DNA of 44,359 nucleotides from IMG/VR virus record IMGVR_UViG_3300048066_000048, positions 1-44,359 of that record; one strand, given 5' to 3'. The translations under genes and the position numbers were made by a program. This stretch comes from a virus. The notes beneath the pieces were generated by a model, which did not search any database, had not been told where the DNA came from, and saw nothing but the letters and a program-made list of their open reading frames with translations. Positions 4,343 through 37,243 of the stretch are shown in pieces (the stretch's first letter is position 1; the number at the start of each line of letters is the position of its first letter).

Positions 4343-6301
4343 TTACCATGTTGTAAGTGCTGCTCTCTTCCAAGTATTATTAGAGATGCAGATGTAAACA
4401 TAACCAGAATCATATCTAATGTCACCAGGAGTTCCAGTATCTGTAGCAGAAGATGGAGCAGATGAAGATGCAATTCTATCTTGAGTTAGTGGTGGATTAG
4501 TGTCAACCCATTGCGTCGTATCAGTATCCTGATAATAAATCTTGAGGCGACCAGTATCACTTTCCCACCATAGATCACCAGCAGATGCAGCAGGTGGTGT
4601 GTCTGAGATAGTTACACTAGCTCCACTTCCTCCACCACCAGTAGTGACAGATCCATCTGCCATCAAATACTCAGATGATGTACCACCAGACTTGATGAAT
4701 GAAGTTGCAGTAACAGTACCACCAATAGTAACACCAGCAGCGGTAGTTGTTAATCTATCAGATCCAAGATACTTAAGAGTACAAACTCCACTACCAGTCA
4801 AACTCAGACAATTATTACCACCAGCAGTACCACCACTATAGAAATGATGTCCTGATCTACTAGCATAGTAAATATCTCCACCAGCACCAGTGTTATTAAT
4901 ATTTCTAACATACATTGTGTTAGAAGCTAACCAGATCTGACCATAACCACCAGAGACAACAGATCCAAGTCTTAGTTCTCCACCTTCAGTTAAATGCAAG
5001 TCCCTTACACTGTCACTTCCTCTTGCAAGAACACTATCAAGTGTGTCAGTTTCAGTGAAAGAAGTTAGATAGTTTGGTGTGGTGTTTACCCAGTTACTAC
5101 CATTATATTGTAGTAGTTGACCATTAGATGCTCCAGTGATAGCAACATCACTGTGATTAGAAACTGCACCATATCCAACTAGGTAACCTTGTGATCCATG
5201 ATTACCCCATGAATATGCAGAGTTCCAATTAGCAATTTGTGCAGAAGTTACTGCTGCTGCATCTGATGCAGAGAATACAGGATCAGTTTCTGTTGTTAGA
5301 TAGCTAGAGAGATCAGGTGGTGTGAAAGTAAATGCACCACTACCAGAGTTATAAGAAAGAGATCCACCACCAGATGCAGTTGCATTTGAAGCAGAAAGAT
5401 CTGTTAGTGCTAGACCACCTCCACCTCCACCAGTAAGATCATTAGCTGCTTTCCATGAACCAGAAGATTGTTCCCACTTAAGAACCTGACCATCAGTAGG
5501 TGCAACGGTAAGGTCAACATCTCCAAGATCTGCCATGGAAGAATTGATATCTAGCAATTCAGTCCAAGCACCAGCATGTGCAAAGTATCCTTTACCTGTA
5601 CCGTGTACATGTGCAAACATACCATGATAAGTAGATGCACCAGGAAGATCTCCTAGGTTATCATAGTTGTTAGCGTATAGTATTTTACCAGTAGTAGTAA
5701 TATTTCTGGTAGTTGTTGAACCTCTTTCAAGAACACTATCAAGTGTGTCACTCTCAAGATAAGATGTTAAGTATCCCGCAGATGCATGATTACCCCAACT
5801 ATATGCTGCGTCCCAATTGGTAATCTTAGATGTAGTAACACCAGCAGCATCACCAAGTGAAGTTAGATATCCTGCTGACGCATGATTTCCCCAACCATAT
5901 GCTGTGTCATAGTTAGAAAGATCTGGTGGTGTAAATGTAAACTGTCCATTGCCAGAGTTATAAGCAAGAGCACCACCACTAGAAGCAGCTGCTGTAATTA
6001 CACTAGGTAGTGGAGGAACAGAGGGTTTGTTAAGAATAACTGCAACACCACCACTAGCATTCCAATCTGAGTTTACCTGTGCTGCAGGAATACTAGGTCT
6101 GTTAGTTAGACTATTATAACTTCCATCAAAAGGTGTTACCCAAGCGATAGAAGATCCAGTTGTGCTGAGGATTTGTCCCGAACTTCCTGCACTACCTGCT
6201 GCTTGGATGGGTTTACCAGCAGGAATATTAAGACCTTCCTTAAGATCTATAGGCGCATTATCACCATAATTGGCGATTTCATTTGCAAGAATTTTTGACA
6301 T
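4343..6301 (-). CDS. Modular tail-fibre-like protein
   Basis: This 652-aa Gly/Ser/Thr-rich protein is built from repeated modules. YGWGNHASAGYLTS-type units occur near residues 135-148 and 167-180, with a variant (YSWGNHGSQGYLV) near 365. TPPDLS.Y blocks lie near 124 and 330. DTLDSVL.RG blocks lie near 185 and 425. A GQVLKW segment lies near 271. The C-terminal part has the common phage pattern DLWWESDTGRLKIYYQD followed by QWVD. The N-terminus MSKILANEIANYG resembles cyanophage fibre-type proteins. The gene has its own late promoter candidate. Receptor binding or a whisker/fibre role is inferred from composition and context only. Confidence 0.8.
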   Translation of the reverse strand: MSKILANEIANYGDNAPIDLKEGLNIPAGKPIQAAGSAGSSGQILSTTGSSIAWVTPFDGSYNSLTNRPSIPAAQVNSDWNASGGVAVILNKPSVPPLPSVITAAASSGGALAYNSGNGQFTFTPPDLSNYDTAYGWGNHASAGYLTSLGDAAGVTTSKITNWDAAYSWGNHASAGYLTSYLESDTLDSVLERGSTTTRNITTTGKILYANNYDNLGDLPGASTYHGMFAHVHGTGKGYFAHAGAWTELLDINSSMADLGDVDLTVAPTDGQVLKWEQSSGSWKAANDLTGGGGGGLALTDLSASNATASGGGSLSYNSGSGAFTFTPPDLSSYLTTETDPVFSASDAAAVTSAQIANWNSAYSWGNHGSQGYLVGYGAVSNHSDVAITGASNGQLLQYNGSNWVNTTPNYLTSFTETDTLDSVLARGSDSVRDLHLTEGGELRLGSVVSGGYGQIWLASNTMYVRNINNTGAGGDIYYASRSGHHFYSGGTAGGNNCLSLTGSGVCTLKYLGSDRLTTTAAGVTIGGTVTATSFIKSGGTSSEYLMADGSVTTGGGGSGASVTISDTPPAASAGDLWWESDTGRLKIYYQDTDTTQWVDTNPPLTQDRIASSSAPSSATDTGTPGDIRYDSGYVYICISNNTWKRAALTTW

Positions 6302-6338
6302 ACTTCCAGTCCTGAAGACAGTTACACTAAGCTAGAAG

Positions 6339-6346
6339 TATTTATC
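6339..6346 (-). promoter_or_regulatory. T4-type late promoter candidate
   Basis: The minus strand reads GATAAATA, 7 of 8 to the late consensus, overlapping the stop codon of the upstream oxygenase gene and about 38 nt before the ATG of the 652-aa fibre-like gene. Confidence 0.6.
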
Positions 6347-6926
6347 TAAATGGAGGACCGCCGTACCACCCAACTAATGATTTTCTACTGCCAGAGTTAA
6401 TTCGTCTAACTCTATGCATACAATCTGAGGGAAATATAATGGCATCACCACGATCCATTTTAAAACTAAACATTTTTCTACCAACATACAGTTGGAATTC
6501 ACCACCATCATAATCATTCTTAGATGATAGACACATACTAATACTTAATTTTCGTATATGATTTTTTGGTTCTGTGTACAGTGCAGAAGCAAGGTCAGTG
6601 TGCCAATCATAATGCGATCCTTTTTTATTATATACACATAGGTGAATAAAGCTCGCCCAGTTATACAAATCAAAATGAAACAGATTAGTATTGGCACAAT
6701 TGACAAAGTGTGAGAGCATTCCTGATACCCAATGATCTGCAGGGATGCCTTGGGTCAGGCAGTCCCTAATTTTTTTATCACTTTTACCATCTGAATTAAC
6801 TTTTGTAGGAGATAGTCGAAGTTCTGCTTCTTCTAACTTTAGTTTAGATAATTGTTTAACAATTACCTCACTAACAGAAGTATCTACTGCAGTAGGTAAG
6901 TAATAATAATTAAGAACTTTGCTCAT
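6342..6926 (-). CDS. 2OG-Fe(II) oxygenase, prolyl-4-hydroxylase-like
   Basis: The 194-aa protein shows the double-stranded beta-helix oxygenase signature: iron ligands His109 and Asp111 (DWHTD) and His171 (CMHRV), and a 2-oxoglutarate-binding Arg about ten residues later (GSRKSLVGW). GGEFQLY and GDAIIFPS are typical core strands of the family. It ends GGPPFR. I chose the ATG at 6926 (MSKVLNYYYLP). An in-frame GTG at 6941 would add five residues, but its AGGTGG is only 3 nt away. Such enzymes are frequent in cyanophages, often next to tail genes; a protein-hydroxylating role on virion proteins is speculation. Confidence 0.85.
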   Translation of the reverse strand: MSKVLNYYYLPTAVDTSVSEVIVKQLSKLKLEEAELRLSPTKVNSDGKSDKKIRDCLTQGIPADHWVSGMLSHFVNCANTNLFHFDLYNWASFIHLCVYNKKGSHYDWHTDLASALYTEPKNHIRKLSISMCLSSKNDYDGGEFQLYVGRKMFSFKMDRGDAIIFPSDCMHRVRRINSGSRKSLVGWYGGPPFR

Positions 6927-24655: not shown

Positions 24656-25059
24656 TACCTATCGCCAGCGGCACGAACTTCTGAGTTGTGAACATTGAAC
24701 TCACCACCAGGATAACGCTTCTTCAGTTTATTGACATTGGTTTCGATTACTTCATCGAAGGATATATCAAGTGCCATTGTAGCTTGAGCAACATACCACA
24801 TAACGTCACCCAACTCAATAATGAGATGCTCACGATTATCTTCGTTCCACGGTTTTCCTTGGAAGACCATTTTTTTAATGATCTCAAGGAACTCACCACC
24901 CTCAGCATTAATTCCAACCCCAGCAGTAAGAAGTCTCTCAATATTGGCACCTTGTCGATCCAGATCACCAATACGGTCAGCGAAATCAACAAAGTTTGTA
25001 GAAGCTTCTGAAGTAACTGCTGATACAAACTCTTCATAGCGTTCAAAATTAATAGTCAT
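24655..25059 (-). CDS. mazG: MazG-like nucleotide pyrophosphohydrolase
   Basis: The 134-aa protein has the MazG helical metal-binding pattern: NAEGGEFLEIIKKMVFQGKP (ExxE type) and LIIELGDVMWYVAQA (ExxD type), then an ETNVNKLKKRYPGGEF tail typical of phage MazG. It hydrolyses (d)NTPs and may lower alarmone or non-canonical nucleotide levels; the in vivo role in cyanophages is debated. The ATG at 25059 overlaps the gp41 stop as ATGA; a GTG at 25068 is possible but less likely. Confidence 0.9.
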   Translation of the reverse strand: MTINFERYEEFVSAVTSEASTNFVDFADRIGDLDRQGANIERLLTAGVGINAEGGEFLEIIKKMVFQGKPWNEDNREHLIIELGDVMWYVAQATMALDISFDEVIETNVNKLKKRYPGGEFNVHNSEVRAAGDR

Positions 25060-26441
25060 ACGTTCCACTCGGCAAATTTAGATAGTCTAGATTGTGTGTC
25101 AGCAAATTGCTGGAAGTCCTCACCAGGAGCTTCTTCACTGATGCCAATAGCTGAGGCATCATCAGCAACATCATACAGCCTCATCTTCGATCTGTCAATT
25201 CCCACCATGAATTTTCGTGAGGTAACGATGTCTGAGTATCTGTTTTTAAGTTGTTTGACCATGATGCGACCTTGTTGTTCCAACTCCTCAGTAGAGATAA
25301 GGGCAAACATAAAATCAGCAGTGGCAGGAAGACCAAAAGACTCAGAAGTATCGGTAAGATCTGGATCGCTATTGCCAAAACCAGAACGAGTGGTCTGAGT
25401 AGCACTAACAATAGGGACGTTAGCTTCCACAGCAAGACCCCGAAGCTCCTCAGCAATCGCCTTAACATAGGTATACGAGTTAACAACGGCACCTTTGTAC
25501 CTCACGCTTGCACATATATTTAAATAATCAATGAATATAAGATCTGGTTTAAAATCTTTTTTTAATCTGAGATCGCTTAGAAGTCCTTTAAAATGTCCGA
25601 CATGTGCAGACGCTGTTGGGTACTCCTTAATAATAAGTTTGCCCTGAGTTTTCCTAGCAATCTCATTTACCTTACTAGTAAAAAGAACCTCAGGTAATTC
25701 TGTAATATCTTTTACAGCAACGTTTAAAAGGTTTGCGTCAATTCGTTCAGCAATTTTTTCCTCTGCCATTTCACATGTAATGTAGAGAACGTTGTACCCC
25801 TGTGAGAGAGCGGCACCAGCTGCATGGCACATGAATAGAGACTTCCCGACACCTGTACCAGCAAGAGCGACATTGAGAGTCTTGTTAGAGATACCACCTT
25901 TCGTGATAAAGTTAAACTTTTCAAGATCAAAGGGAACCTTCTCTTCTTTGCGATGGTAGAATTCATATCTGTCTGTTGCTTGTTCAATATAGTCGTGTCC
26001 TATGTGTTCGTCGAACGATACCGCCAAGGCTTCTTGGAGTATGGAGGGTATCGCATCTCTCGAAAGTTTTTTATCGCCTCCATCTGCGATCTTGATCGAG
26101 GACATAAGGGCGAGATAGATTGCTCTGTCTTGACACCACTTTTCGGTTGCGTCAAGGAGCCAGTCGTAGTCAACCCAGTCGTCTGATAGGGAGGATACCG
26201 TCTGTACCGAACTTTGAAACGATTCGTCAGTAAGGTCATTACGATTCTGGAGATTAATCGTAAGGATTTCTTTAGTAGGAACTTTGTCGTACTTAGAAGA
26301 AAACTCGGCAATCTCCTCAAAGATAATCTTCTCATGATAGTTCTCGTAGTATTCTGCTTTGAGAAATGGGACTACCTTTCGATAATACTCCTCGTTATGT
26401 AGGAGGTTTCTTAGGATAGTTTCTTCAATCCGTTCAATCAT
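25056..26441 (-). CDS. 41: Replicative DNA helicase gp41
   Basis: The 461-aa DnaB/RecA-fold helicase has an N-terminal helical domain (1-150), then Walker A GTGVGKS (195-201), Walker B DLIFIDYLNI (near 300), and an SATQTTRSGFG DnaB-motif region (near 345). It unwinds DNA at the fork and recruits primase gp61. It overlaps the methyltransferase gene by 8 nt and mazG by 4 nt. Confidence 0.95.
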   Translation of the reverse strand: MIERIEETILRNLLHNEEYYRKVVPFLKAEYYENYHEKIIFEEIAEFSSKYDKVPTKEILTINLQNRNDLTDESFQSSVQTVSSLSDDWVDYDWLLDATEKWCQDRAIYLALMSSIKIADGGDKKLSRDAIPSILQEALAVSFDEHIGHDYIEQATDRYEFYHRKEEKVPFDLEKFNFITKGGISNKTLNVALAGTGVGKSLFMCHAAGAALSQGYNVLYITCEMAEEKIAERIDANLLNVAVKDITELPEVLFTSKVNEIARKTQGKLIIKEYPTASAHVGHFKGLLSDLRLKKDFKPDLIFIDYLNICASVRYKGAVVNSYTYVKAIAEELRGLAVEANVPIVSATQTTRSGFGNSDPDLTDTSESFGLPATADFMFALISTEELEQQGRIMVKQLKNRYSDIVTSRKFMVGIDRSKMRLYDVADDASAIGISEEAPGEDFQQFADTQSRLSKFAEWNV

Positions 26442-27291
26442 TAAAATTTAACCTAGCAAAGGATTTTTCACTTAACCTTGTTTGAATTAGTTTACCATAG
26501 TCTTCATGTAATTCGCAACCCAAATAATGTCTTTGTAATGATTTGGCAACTAAGGCAGTAGTACCAGATCCCATAAATGGATCCAATACAAGATCACCTT
26601 CTTCACTACCAGCTTTAATACATGGTTCAATTAACTCTGGTGGATACACAGCAAAGTGTGCTCCCTTGTATGGTTTAGTTTTAATTTCCCATACAGTTTT
26701 CTTACGCTTCAACCCCTTACCATCCACAGTTGATTCTTTGATAGCATTAACATCAAAATAATAATTTTGACTTTTACTAAACAAGAAAATATACTCGTGA
26801 GATTTAGTGCATCTATCTCTCACACTCTCTGGCATTGGATTAGGTTTATTCCAAATAATATCTTGTCTTAGATACCATCCGTCTGCTCTCATGGCAAAAG
26901 CAAACATCCAAGGAATACCAATAAGATCTTTTTCTTTAAGACCTTCTAGTTTGTTACCTCGTCTGGCACATGTGCTAGGTAAATCTTGGTTAGTTTTAGA
27001 TACTGATTGTTTATGAATAGCTTGACCTTTACCTGGTCTATAGTTGTAATAACTATCACCAAGATTAACCCAGCATGTTCCATCATCAGTAAGACAATTT
27101 CTTACCTCACGAAAAACCTTTACAAGATTGTCAACATATTCTTCTGGTGTTTGTTCCAGACCAATCTGATCTTCTTCACCACCATAGTTACGTAGACCAT
27201 AGTAAGGTGGTGAGGTAACACACATTCTAGCTTTACTATCAAACTCTTTAAGAGTTTCGCGACAGTCACCGTAGAGAATAGTATCCTTCAA
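26434..27291 (-). CDS. DNA methyltransferase, beta-class N4-cytosine/N6-adenine type
   Basis: The 285-aa enzyme has catalytic motif TSPPY (residues 26-30) ahead of the AdoMet motif DPFMGSGTT (237-245), the beta-class order. The Ser before PPY favours N4-cytosine methylation, as in the MvaI group, but N6-adenine is not excluded. DIIWNKPNPMP and HEYIFLFSK are further family blocks. It starts with TTG at 27291, overlapping the endonuclease stop as TTGA with an AAGGAG SD 8 nt away, so both proteins are translationally coupled. Confidence 0.9.
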   Translation of the reverse strand: MKDTILYGDCRETLKEFDSKARMCVTSPPYYGLRNYGGEEDQIGLEQTPEEYVDNLVKVFREVRNCLTDDGTCWVNLGDSYYNYRPGKGQAIHKQSVSKTNQDLPSTCARRGNKLEGLKEKDLIGIPWMFAFAMRADGWYLRQDIIWNKPNPMPESVRDRCTKSHEYIFLFSKSQNYYFDVNAIKESTVDGKGLKRKKTVWEIKTKPYKGAHFAVYPPELIEPCIKAGSEEGDLVLDPFMGSGTTALVAKSLQRHYLGCELHEDYGKLIQTRLSEKSFARLNFND

Positions 27292-27977
27292 TTGATGATC
27301 TCCTTAACAAATAGTTCTTCCATTTTACCATGATTCATACGGAATGCAGTACCACGATTACGAAGAGATTTACCAATCATCTTCTGTGTACGCATACGAA
27401 TATCAATAGCAATCATATCATTCTCGATTGCAGTGCGAAACAAGTTCTTGTCAGTACCAATGAAACGATATGCTTCATTGTAGTGGAAGTATTCTACACC
27501 GTCACGTTTCTCAACGTCAGCAAATACTTTCACACATGCAGGAAACTTCTTAGCAAACTGATCAATCAATGTGTCCCAATCCCACATAACAATAATAACA
27601 TTGTCATGACAGATAGCACAGTAGTCATCAGTAGTCACGATCTGAAGACCACGCTTATTAACGTTTTTAGTTACAGTAGATTGTCCACTCAACTCACCAA
27701 TTTTTGTGGTGTGAGGGAAACCATATGTTTCAATATAATCTCTCTGGGGTACAACCCAATCACCCTCTTTAGTAAACAATGTCTGTTTACCACCAGCGCC
27801 TTTACGTGCTGCTTTAAGTTCATTACCCTCAAGGTCAGGACCAGAAATACAGTTCTCAGTCAGTCCTAGTTCTTGTTCAAGAGTGTGTCCCACACCTGTG
27901 TTACCTTTGCGATGGGATTTGATGTAACCACGTTCTTTGATCGCATCAAATTTTTGCTTGAATGTTGTGAGATCCAT
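27288..27977 (-). CDS. MvaI/BcnI-like type II restriction endonuclease
   Basis: The 229-aa protein matches the MvaI/BcnI pattern: TFKQKFDAIKERGYIKSHRK, GNTGVGHTLEQELGL, then GPDLEGNELKAARKG. The Asp48-x4-Glu53-x-Lys55 spacing equals the Asp50/Glu55/Lys57 active site I recall for MvaI. The family cuts CC(W or S)GG-type sites; the exact site here is unknown. I chose the ATG at 27977, which has a GAGG SD at 7 nt; a longer frame back to 28055 would cross the upstream terminator. It is the first gene after a promoter and sits directly before its cognate-type methyltransferase. Confidence 0.85.
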   Translation of the reverse strand: MDLTTFKQKFDAIKERGYIKSHRKGNTGVGHTLEQELGLTENCISGPDLEGNELKAARKGAGGKQTLFTKEGDWVVPQRDYIETYGFPHTTKIGELSGQSTVTKNVNKRGLQIVTTDDYCAICHDNVIIVMWDWDTLIDQFAKKFPACVKVFADVEKRDGVEYFHYNEAYRFIGTDKNLFRTAIENDMIAIDIRMRTQKMIGKSLRNRGTAFRMNHGKMEELFVKEIIN

Positions 27978-28004
27978 GGGTAATCCTCGATGGTTGATAG
28001 ACAT

Positions 28005-28033
28005 ACTATACAATGAAAAAGGGGGTCGTGCAA
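28005..28033 (-). promoter_or_regulatory. Sigma70-like promoter overlapping the uvsX terminator
   Basis: The minus strand has TTGCAC (28033-28028), a 17-nt spacer and TATAGT (28010-28005). The -10 matches 5 of 6; the -35 matches only its TTG. The -35 lies in the terminator hairpin. It would drive the restriction endonuclease unit. Confidence 0.5.
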
Positions 28034-28038
28034 CCCCC
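28016..28038 (-). terminator. Rho-independent terminator after uvsX
   Basis: The minus strand has a GGGGGT/ACCCCC-type hairpin (28038-28021, 6-nt loop) followed by T5 (28020-28016). It lies 13 nt past the uvsX stop and separates the polymerase/uvsX unit from the restriction-modification/gp41 unit. Confidence 0.85.
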
Positions 28039-28051
28039 TGTAGACAGCTTG

Positions 28052-29065
28052 TCAATTGCCATAGGTGAATTCTTGTTTAGCTGCCTCTTCTAATTTTGCC
28101 ATCACTTCTTCAGTGAAGTACTTCTCAGGATTCGAGAGAATAGATTTAGGATAAACAGAAGATTCACCAACCTTAATACGATTGCCAACCCGCTGGAAGA
28201 CTCCGTATTGTTCACCCAACTCCAATAACCCGTAATACTTGTCAAGTCCACGGTCGTCAAAAAATAGACGTGTCTCAATCTTACTGCCCTCCTTAGTTAA
28301 ACGTGACTTCTTTGCTTCACACTTGATAATGTTACCTACCAATTCAGTACCATCTTTCTCTTTCTTCTTACCAAGATAGATGATAGTAGATGCAGCGTAC
28401 TTAAGACCTGTGCCGCCACCCATCTCCTTAGTAGGAACATAGGAACCGATCACATCATATGTATGGTTGGTAACGATCATAGGCACCTGTGCTTGACCCA
28501 GTTTAAGTGTCAGCACACGAAAGGCACCCTTGATCAACTGACTCTTTGTCATGTCACGAACTTGCTTATCATTAGCAACGTCTTCCATCTCCTTGTTAGT
28601 TGAAAGCATACCTAAAGAATCTAACACAAACATCATAGGTTCACGTTTGTCTTTAGGTTCTTTCATATACTTGTCAACGATACGACAAGCTTGAGTCCTG
28701 AACTCTTCAATGGTTGAGACAGGAAACAAAACCATACGTTGGGAATCAATACCACGCGACTCAATCATGTCACGGGAAATGGCGGATTCAGTTTCAAAAT
28801 AAATGACGCCGCCTGTAGGATTATCACGAAGGAAATTACGAACGACACTAAGAGCAAAAAAAGTTTTCCCAGTGCTTGATTCTCCTGCAAGAGCGGTGAC
28901 TTTGTTTGAAGGCAAACCTCCAAAAAGCGAACCACTAACCAAGGCGTTAAAAATATAACTGCCAGTATCGACATAATCAGTAATGTCGCCAGCAGCGACT
29001 CCTTCACTAACCAAACCAGCAAATTCATTGCCACTATCTTTAATTACAGAATTTAAGAATCCCAT
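28052..29065 (-). CDS. uvsX: UvsX, RecA-like recombinase
   Basis: The 337-aa protein has Walker A GESSTGKT (61-68), a Walker B-type [11 protein letters not shown] (near 143-153) and the RecA-core [20 protein letters not shown] followed by VTNHTYDV. It forms presynaptic filaments for strand exchange and recombination-dependent replication. The upstream 58-aa gene overlaps its start by 13 nt. A strong hairpin terminator follows. Confidence 0.95.
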
Positions 29066-34402: not shown

Positions 34403-34546
34403 TTATTTAAAAGTAGCAGTGACACCTATTACGGTAGCACCAGGATTACGAGCAAGAGCTACCTTACGTGCGTCTTGGTAATCACGAGCAATGACTTCTT
34501 CAGTGAAGACAGTGCCTGTTTTAAAAAGTTTGACTTCACACTTCAT
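34403..34546 (-). CDS. 47-aa hypothetical protein
   Basis: The frame from an ATG at 34546 to a TAA at 34403 encodes MKCEVKLFKTGTVFTEEVIA... with an ARDYQDARKVALARNPGAT helix-turn and a final strand TVIGVTATFK. It overlaps the dam stop by 11 nt. Composition and alpha-beta pattern look like a real small conserved protein. Function unknown. Confidence 0.7.
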   Translation of the reverse strand: MKCEVKLFKTGTVFTEEVIARDYQDARKVALARNPGATVIGVTATFK

Positions 34547-35375
34547 AATTAAAAAGGACTAGTTCCTTACGAGCTGCTTGATCTGTATTATAACTCCCCA
34601 CACTCCTCATGGTGTAAGTGTGTGCAAATTCAGCAGCTGTCCACTCAGCGAAACGATCTCTGATTAGTTGTGATGAATTGTAAGACACAAGTTGTGGACC
34701 AACAAATCGGTCACACTTGACAGCAAAGTGGTCGTGATTAAATCCACTATGCATATTACCTCTCTTGCCATAGAGATTAGATCCAATCTCGTATGGTGGG
34801 TCTAAGTAAGTAAAAGCATTCTTACTATCAGTAAGAAGTTGTTCGTAGCTAACGTTAGTGATCTTCCATTTAGAAATCATTCCTGAATATTCAGGGAGTT
34901 TATCAATGCCTCGCATCGAGAAATTGCTATCTGACGCTTGCTTGCTGAAGGAACTGGACTCAGTGAGACCAGAGAAAGAGCACTTATTAACAATATAAAA
35001 ACACACAGCAGCAGATAAGTCGGATGTTGAATCATCGTTTAGTTTCTCCTTAGCGTCTAGAAATAATAGTTTTGCTGATACTGGTTCTGGATGACGATAC
35101 TTAAGTTGAACCAACTGATCACGAAGTTCTCGTCCTTGATCCTGAAGCACTCGCCAGAAGTTATAGAGTGGTCCATACAAATCGTTTACCCAGATATCTA
35201 GGTGTGGATATCGTTTACCAATTTCTAGTGCTACAGATCCACCACCCAAGAATGGTTCACGATACTCAGTGTAATCTTTCAGGTTTGGAATATACTGAAA
35301 GAGTTTACTCAGGGCACGACTCTTCCCGCCTGGATACCTGAGGGGTGTCTTCAATGACTTCAATGTCTGGGGCAT
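34536..35375 (-). CDS. dam: DNA adenine methylase (Dam, D12 class)
   Basis: The 279-aa enzyme shows the alpha-class order: AdoMet motifs RYPGGK (13-18) and EPFLGGGS (40-47), target-recognition region, then catalytic DPPY (192-195). The FYIVNKCSFSGL block is typical of T4 Dam-like enzymes. It likely methylates N6 of adenine in a short site, probably GATC by family; not proven. It could protect phage DNA from host enzymes. Confidence 0.93.
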   Translation of the reverse strand: MPQTLKSLKTPLRYPGGKSRALSKLFQYIPNLKDYTEYREPFLGGGSVALEIGKRYPHLDIWVNDLYGPLYNFWRVLQDQGRELRDQLVQLKYRHPEPVSAKLLFLDAKEKLNDDSTSDLSAAVCFYIVNKCSFSGLTESSSFSKQASDSNFSMRGIDKLPEYSGMISKWKITNVSYEQLLTDSKNAFTYLDPPYEIGSNLYGKRGNMHSGFNHDHFAVKCDRFVGPQLVSYNSSQLIRDRFAEWTAAEFAHTYTMRSVGSYNTDQAARKELVLFNYEV

Positions 35376-36733: not shown

Positions 36734-37243
36734 TCAAATCCAATCAGGTTTACGTTCTGGAGCACGAAGATAGTTGGTAGCTACCCAAGGTTTAGATGCA
36801 ATATACATTTTGTACTTGCTGTAGATATCAACAGTATCATACTTGAATTCATCAGGACCTGCAAACACAAAAGGTGTATGCATAGTATTGTCTGCTGATG
36901 GTAAGAGATGTGTTGCCTCTAGTAGTGGTCTAGAACAAGAATGAACCTTACCGTATCTGTGTGTGTACTCAGCACACAGAGAAAGACCATGTGTAAGTAA
37001 CCACCATGCATTTTCTAGAGAATCATTTGCCCAGATAGTGCAAGGGTGATTACGGAATGCACCTTTCTCTGTCTTGTATGGTTGACCATCGTTGCGATGT
37101 ATTCTACCATAACTATGACCCCATTCTTCAGAGCAAACAATAGAGAGCATTTGACATGTCTCTAATGGCATCTTGACAATGTGTTTGTCAGGCAAGCACT
37201 GTGCTGAGATAGTGGGATCAGGGTCTGTTACAAAAATATTCAA
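36734..37243 (-). CDS. Conserved phage protein of unknown function
   Basis: The 169-aa protein starts MNIFVTDPDPTISAQCLPDK and continues HIVKMPLETCQMLS, a pattern I know from T4-like phages without an assigned role. It is rich in His, Cys and Trp (for example EEWGHSYGRIH, WANDSLENAWWLLTHG, YGKVHSCSRP), so a metal site is possible. The start is a TTG overlapping the gp45 stop (TTGA). It is encoded between clamp and clamp loader, suggesting a DNA-metabolism role; inference. Confidence 0.75.
   Translation of the reverse strand: MNIFVTDPDPTISAQCLPDKHIVKMPLETCQMLSIVCSEEWGHSYGRIHRNDGQPYKTEKGAFRNHPCTIWANDSLENAWWLLTHGLSLCAEYTHRYGKVHSCSRPLLEATHLLPSADNTMHTPFVFAGPDEFKYDTVDIYSKYKMYIASKPWVATNYLRAPERKPDWI

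Follow-up and report, generated by a model that had tools for sequence, protein, structure and literature searches.

Why would a lytic phage carry the gene for a restriction endonuclease joined to one for a DNA methyltransferase? The question is raised by IMG/VR virus record IMGVR_UViG_3300048066_000048, whose whole stretch of 44,359 nucleotides is referred to here as the window. An MvaI/BcnI-family PD-(D/E)XK endonuclease gene (27288..27977, minus strand; 229 amino acids; ATG at 27977, stop ending at 27288) is followed by a beta-class DNA methyltransferase gene (26434..27291, minus strand; 285 amino acids; TTG start at 27291, stop ending at 26434), and the stop of the former overlaps the start of the latter in the sequence TTGA (27288..27291, minus strand). 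The span of the pair (26434-27977), the length of the nuclease, the TTG start and the overlap had been given by a first-pass annotation and are correct. The pair probably constitutes an offensive Type II restriction-modification (R-M) system, with which a lytic phage marks its own DNA and cuts the DNA of rival phages and/or of the host, the lone methyltransferases of its relatives serving as immunity. Beyond what the first-pass annotation had seen, the nuclease stands before a methylase that occurs alone at that place in relatives, and two nuclease lineages have taken the place.

The two enzymes and their linkage

The nuclease was matched by the Pfam profile PF15515 (MvaI_BcnI) at 1e-38 (134.1 bits, cut-off 25) over its whole length (profile positions 2-227 of 227). 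Among PDB sequences, a single-sequence search with E values up to 1 returned R.MvaI (1.3e-14) and R.BcnI (1.1e-4) only, and a profile search returned R.MvaI (4e-33), R.BcnI (4e-27) and three others (0.016-0.47). PHROGs held no family for it (best 0.23), and a BFVD search with an E limit of 0.001 found nothing. A structure predicted from a 20-row alignment, with a mean predicted local distance difference test score of 91.3, was compared with known folds by VIA-align. MvaI was nearest (Z 17.4 to 2oaa, root-mean-square deviation (rmsd) 7.7 over 225 aligned residues; Z 16.9 to 2oa9, rmsd 4.3 over 221), followed by BcnI (Z 16.3 to 2odi, rmsd 7.7 over 221). A MutH-type mismatch-repair nickase was rejected since MutH reached a Z of 7.7, against 17.4 for MvaI and 16.3 for BcnI; Sau3AI reached 6.3. 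A homing endonuclease of the LAGLIDADG, HNH or GIY-YIG type was also considered and rejected, MvaI_BcnI being the only Pfam family above its cut-off. Judged by its sequence and predicted fold, the protein is thus a member of the MvaI/BcnI family, as first proposed from its active-site spacing, and is presumably active as a nuclease.

The catalytic residues are not lost in relatives. The D-x4-E-x-K motif reads DLEGNELK in the window, and D-x4/5-E-x-K is kept in all 25 distinct phage-type nuclease sequences, which include a truncated near-copy of the window protein (L021; compared loci carry L numbers) and one from a metagenome-assembled genome (MAG; L115). All 21 rows of alignment A3, of which four are cellular, share E34, D48, E53 and K55. 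The ratio of nonsynonymous to synonymous divergence (dN/dS) of the nuclease ranged from 0.089 to 0.143 in the eight computable comparisons, three of which had a dS above 1; dS was saturated between the window nuclease and those of L042 and L163. For the methyltransferase and the genes around the pair, values of 0.036 to 0.121 were obtained. The kept active site and the low ratios point to a nuclease under constraint, which appears to be somewhat looser than that on the neighbouring genes.

For the methyltransferase, profile searches gave PF01555 (N6_N4_Mtase) at 9.4e-57 and the PADLOC model MTase_II PDLC03387 at 3.3e-110. TSPPY (motif IV) lies near the N end and DPFMGSGT (motif I) near the C end, and the order of motif IV before motif I is that named the beta class, so the class first assigned to the enzyme stands. 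All 81 distinct methyltransferases have TSPPY, and 80 of the 81 have DPF.GSGT. TSPPY is a sign of an N4-methylcytosine product, and the enzyme would be expected to form this base.

The same gene pair recurs widely. When IMG/VR was searched with the window protein, 29 nuclease loci were found; an alignment as the query raised this number to 39, several being near-copies. Of these 39 nuclease contigs, 35 have a TSPPY methyltransferase that starts four bases inside the nuclease stop, with TTG as its start in 27 and ATG in eight; two contigs (L148 and L164) are truncated too soon to show a partner, and two (L154, from the record of L025, and L165, from that of L029) lack such a methyltransferase. 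The pairing proposed for the window is thereby borne out. The nuclease-first order and the TTG start are likewise real; the first-pass annotation had called this order unusual for a self-protecting system, which is the weaker part of the claim, since the order is the rule in this phage family. An assembly artefact was judged unlikely because the gene occurs in 39 contigs, most of them with different metagenome numbers. Encoded together in this way, the two genes form, by linkage, a putative Type II R-M system.

Outside IMG/VR, the distribution of the two genes is very uneven. A tblastn search with the nuclease found one of 50,697 phage records (MH319755, a single-cell marine virus of Kyanoviridae), and queries of the second phage nuclease type and of a cellular nuclease found the same single record. 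Relatives of the methyltransferase occur in 681 of the 50,697 records, the closest among the matches listed being mostly from cyanophages.

The uvsX-gp41 place and the separate histories of the two genes

The genome carrying the pair is that of a T4-like cyanophage. Its host is likely a marine Synechococcus because the window uvsX shares 90.8% identity with its counterpart in Synechococcus phage ACG-2014h and 90.2% with that in S-CAM4. This RecA-like gene (28052..29065, minus strand; PF00154) is the left neighbour of the pair and marks the insertion place; the right neighbour, a gp41-like helicase gene (25056..26441, minus strand; PF03796), overlaps the end of the methyltransferase gene. Three states of this place were found. 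In S-CAM4 and S-RSM4, the end of uvsX overlaps the start of gp41 (state 0). Neighbours were then surveyed for the best 80 of 596 methyltransferase loci, several of them near-copies. The order uvsX, methyltransferase, gp41 (state 1) occurs in 21 of the 80, and in nine a nuclease lies between uvsX and the methyltransferase (state 2). The remaining 50 are located elsewhere in the genome and show no nuclease match in the available flank, a few flanks being too short. Nine of the 21 state 1 junctions were inspected, and no nuclease remnant was seen in them.

State 2 itself is of two kinds. In the clade of the window, the insert carries a terminator-like hairpin, a TATAGT box and the leader ATCGAGG..CCCATG. 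L042 and L163 have another nuclease lineage (56% and 54% identical to the window nuclease, respectively) with no such header, and its ATG has one base in common with the uvsX stop; the methyltransferase of L042 is nevertheless 94% identical to that of the window. Two nuclease lineages, as judged from these sequences, occupy one slot, with different junctions, before a near-identical methyltransferase. The pair seems to have been assembled in place and stepwise, by addition of a nuclease before an older lone methyltransferase, and the three states would then reflect gain of the nuclease rather than its loss from the empty sites.

In the window, the terminator-like hairpin with a T run lies between uvsX and the nuclease (28020..28039, minus strand), followed by TATAGT (28005..28010, minus strand), a possible -10 box, and by the ribosome-binding-site-like GAGG (27985..27988, minus strand), which is invariant in eight of eight aligned leaders. 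The terminator scan of the region found three such hairpins against 1.3 expected, and the fold z-score of the nuclease leader was only -1.04; a hairpin with a T run, judged by eye, is also present upstream of the nuclease in L018, L022 and L023. The window TATAGT aligns with TATAAT or TATAGT of L010, L022, L023 and L024, and a -10-like box with a T run lies upstream of the L022-L024 nucleases. The same leader, altered by one change in L015, also precedes nucleases that lie elsewhere in the genome (L011, L015, L018 and L022-L024). The claim that the pair has its own promoter therefore stands in part: the hairpin after uvsX (28039-28020) and the TATAGT support it, but a sigma-70 scan called no promoter at 28010-28005. 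At the edges of the inserted segment, CAATTGA at the uvsX stop (28052..28058, minus strand) and CAATTGA at the nuclease stop (27288..27294, minus strand) are identical in seven bases, perhaps as microhomology and perhaps as the mere product of two stop/start overlaps.

The trees of the two genes conflict, although their bootstraps had not settled. In the nuclease tree, the window groups with L005, L010, L011 and L115 (95/93), and a second group is made up of L032, L042 and L163 (99/100). The methyltransferase tree places the window with L042, L163, L010, L005 and the lone L043 (97/88), puts L011 and L115 at a large distance, and pairs L032 with the lone L100 (100/97). On this tree, four changes of the nuclease label are needed, three of them forced by its starred branches. 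In the approximately unbiased (AU) test, with clades picked after the trees had been seen, a single clade of {window, L005, L010, L042, L163} is rejected on the nuclease sequences (p 2.9e-93), and one of {window, L005, L010, L011, L115} on the methyltransferase sequences (p 1.1e-76). Between the window and L011, the nucleases are 89% identical and the methyltransferases 73%. The methyltransferase data leave a clade of L032, L042 and L163 unrejected (p 0.187), unlike the larger tree with its pairing of L032 and L100, and the lone methyltransferase of L046 sits on a long branch beside paired ones of other sites (81/88). The backbone tree has too little resolution to put gains and losses in sequence (for the nuclease label, 12 of 500 shuffles gave a value no higher than the observed one). 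The conflict between the gene trees indicates that the two genes recombine apart, the nuclease apparently moving without the methylase.

The cellular relatives point to a different partner. Two peptide patterns, run against the genomes of 84,980 cellular species, picked out 15 nuclease loci, two above 80% identity (L115 and L116) and the rest at 30-44%. A cellular origin of these two was rejected, because they look like phage contigs binned with cells: L116 encodes the same protein as the viral contig of L018 and lies on a contig of equal length, and in L115 a phage-type methyltransferase adjoins the nuclease. The MAGs concerned, named as a euryarchaeon and a Rhodopirellula, seemingly contain binned phage contigs with the nuclease-methyltransferase pair. 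On plasmids, nuclease relatives occur in 25 of 72,556 records, none reaching 60% identity; on a Halorubrum plasmid and a Lactococcus plasmid, the nuclease is accompanied by a convergent gene with a methyltransferase annotation, and on a Geobacillus plasmid by a convergent hypothetical gene. In the cellular loci L117, L118, L121 and L122, the methylase beside the nuclease has a PF01555 match with motif I near the N end. That of L118 has TSPPY near residue 250, after motif I, which is the reverse of the order in the window enzyme, and BLASTP between the two gave 0.025 only. From the reversed order and this value, the phage nuclease appears to work with another methylase than the cellular relatives examined.

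Other genes of the window touch on DNA modification and repair. A second methyltransferase gene, of the D12-class N6-adenine type (34536-35375, minus strand; PF02086, 1.2e-30), lies near the clamp-loader genes, and S-CAM4 and S-RSM4 have an annotated DNA methyltransferase at a place like that of this gene. A pyrimidine-dimer DNA glycosylase gene (36734-37243, minus strand; PF03013, 6e-16) is located between the clamp and clamp-loader genes.

Possible role and competing explanations

In the proposed mechanism, the methyltransferase would mark the phage DNA during replication, and this DNA would reach the next cell already methylated. The nuclease, probably translated from the same message as the methyltransferase, would cut unmarked DNA, namely that of rival phages without the methyltransferase and perhaps that of the host, and relatives with the methyltransferase alone would be immune to nuclease-carrying rivals. 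No delay of the nuclease would be needed because the infected cell is doomed. The role in self-maintenance that had also been suggested for the pair seems a poor fit to a lytic phage. It is possible, and is put forward here tentatively, that a mobile MvaI-type nuclease repeatedly lands upstream of a matching lone methyltransferase and turns an immunity gene into a weapon, the T4-GC 38 methyltransferases being immunity genes in a restriction arms race between phages.

Several observations weigh against an offensive R-M system. That the two enzymes share a recognition site is suggested by their linkage, and word counts do not name the site. Counts were made of 24 chosen words in 12 sequences, and of all palindromes of 4-7 bases in the nine of those sequences above 25 kb, as well as in the window and the S-CAM4 and S-RSM4 pieces. 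The window has 34 CCWGG (44 expected from the first-order and 61 from the maximal-order model) and no CCSGG. CCWGG is below its maximal-order expectation in 14 of 14 sequences, and the deficit is larger in methyltransferase carriers (34/61 in the window and 97/211 in the L089 record). S-RSM4, whose whole record has no PF01555 match, is the sole methyltransferase-free control because S-CAM4 carries such a gene elsewhere in its genome (7.7e-41). The 50-kb piece of S-RSM4 contains 72 CCWGG against 67 (first-order) and 86 (maximal-order) expected, and neither avoidance nor a footprint of rival attack at CCWGG was found in this piece. The record of L025, with a nuclease and no PF01555 match, has 102 CCWGG (119 expected, maximal-order) and 29 CCSGG; these two sequences show the smallest deficits (72/86 and 102/119). 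With CCWGG present in the lone-nuclease record and not avoided in S-RSM4, reading the recognition site from word counts was rejected. The L025 nuclease (6001-6693 of 126,920 bases) is 66% identical to that of the window, and the open reading frame segments of at least 110 amino acids in its record contain one DPPY only, in a 141-residue segment without another methylase motif. This nuclease may have a different site, its protector may lie outside the contig, or the pairing may not be essential; the record may also be incomplete. The L029 nuclease (35%) is likewise without a methyltransferase partner. Among the cultured phages of the collection, no nuclease was seen. Finally, L043 has a lone methyltransferase inside the paired clade, so losses at single tips are possible.

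The lack of CCSGG in the window results from the lack of CCGG itself. CCGG is also absent from phages without the nuclease (the S-RSM4 piece and the L089 record), and the absence of CCSGG is therefore not tied to this pair. CCGG is missing from the window (0 against about 33 expected) and elsewhere (0 of 81 in 95 kb and 0 of 67 in 152 kb), with zero counts in the records of L008, L163, L011 and L089 and in the pieces of the L032 record, S-RSM4, S-SSM4, S-SSM5 and P-SSM4. It is present in the records of L025, L161 and L022 and in the S-CAM4 piece, which indicates a strong, lineage-dependent avoidance. TCGA is absent from the L163 record (32 kb; 0 of 94 expected) and from the S-SSM4 piece L033 (0 of 27 expected), and the L089 record has GCGC 0 of 43 and GGWCC 1 of 112. 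Each phage seemingly shuns its own set of palindromes.

Four other explanations were weighed against the offensive system. The location of the pair among replication genes (gp43, uvsX and gp41) could mean that the chief task of the nuclease is to break down the host chromosome as a supply for replication, with the methyltransferase sparing phage DNA and the effect on rivals being incidental; such a use is credited to chloroviruses in PMC7253447. The same paper states that host DNA is not degraded by the marseillevirus R-M system, and the patchy occurrence at one place (nine loci with the nuclease and 21 without, of 80) would fit an arms race better than a core task, so that host-DNA scavenging is a somewhat doubtful explanation. 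The differing histories of the two genes, the presence of two nuclease lineages at one place, and an insert that starts at the uvsX stop and bears CAATTGA on either side would suit a selfish mobile gene, tolerated only beside a disarming methyltransferase and spreading in a homing-like manner by cutting unmethylated genomes in mixed infections. That account is unlikely: no homing-endonuclease family was matched in Pfam, the predicted fold is that of a short-site Type II enzyme, whose site cannot mark one place, and CAATTGA may merely reflect the two overlaps.

The far greater number of lone methyltransferases (681 records against one with the nuclease) and the position of L043 could instead be read as decay, in which the pair was taken up whole and the lone methyltransferases are remnants left after nuclease loss. 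This course of events is improbable in view of the nine empty junctions without a remnant, the low dN/dS of the nuclease, its different partner, a methylase of another motif order, in the four scanned cellular loci, and the strong conflict of the gene trees, which speaks against one shared origin. Very improbable, too, is that the two genes are unmatched neighbours, the nuclease having a site that the methyltransferase does not protect or being a MutH-like repair nickase: the L025 and L029 loci without a methyltransferase would agree with this, but 35 of 39 contigs pair both genes with the same overlap and the MutH fold is far behind those of MvaI and BcnI.

If the offensive R-M system is real, the lone methyltransferase found in many cyanophages would acquire a role open to testing, and the story of orphan methylases as leftovers of broken systems would be reversed. 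What is at hand is a family of marine phage contigs with a nuclease and a methyltransferase, beside relatives that resemble earlier steps. The empty site, the lone methylase and the two nuclease types could serve as a natural experiment on competition between phages of marine Synechococcus.

Comparison with known systems

R.MvaI and R.BcnI recognize CCWGG and CCSGG, respectively, according to PMC7337904. The phage nuclease resembles both in its whole-length profile match, active-site spacing and predicted fold. It differs from them in its low identity (22-26%), in being encoded by a phage, and in its partner methylase, which is ordered differently from that of the scanned cellular relatives. 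A literature search, with most subscription journals outside its coverage, found no account of a phage with an MvaI-type nuclease. Type II nucleases are described as rare on bacteriophages in PMC4081073, and a modification-dependent nuclease is reported from an archaeal virus in PMC10101028.

Among cyanophages, the "dam" methyltransferase labelled T4-GC 38 in S-SSM5 and P-SSM4 belongs to the same family as the window enzyme (72.1% and 67.2% identical, respectively). Unlike the window, these two carriers have no PF15515 nuclease in their whole records, and none was found in that of S-SSM4. P-SSM4 contains an annotated pair directly before T4-GC 38 (L034, 3359-5957), consisting of PSSM4_046 ("restriction endonuclease II") and the methyltransferase PSSM4_047. 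Neither has a Pfam match at 0.01, and hence none to MvaI_BcnI, in contrast to the window nuclease. P-SSM4 thus presents another nuclease type beside the same methylase family.

Parallels in other viruses are found in the R-M systems of marseilleviruses and chloroviruses, as described in PMC7253447 and PMC4081073. These are also nuclease and methyltransferase pairs encoded by a virus, but of viruses of amoebae or algae, whereas the window pair belongs to a phage of cyanobacteria. In marseilleviruses, the two genes lie side by side with the nuclease transcribed first (PMC7253447), which further weakens the view that such an order is unusual for self-protection. The marseillevirus nuclease was reported to be able to degrade the DNA of marseilleviruses without the system, and the orphan methyltransferases of giant viruses were proposed by the authors to act in defence (PMC7253447). 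The marseillevirus pair was read as one acquisition because 13 genomes have both genes or neither (PMC7253447); in the family of the window, on the other hand, some members have the methyltransferase at this place without a nuclease. Type II R-M itself, including that of chloroviruses and marseilleviruses, was therefore already known, and what is new here is the evidence that such a system was assembled stepwise, with nucleases exchanged before a resident methyltransferase.

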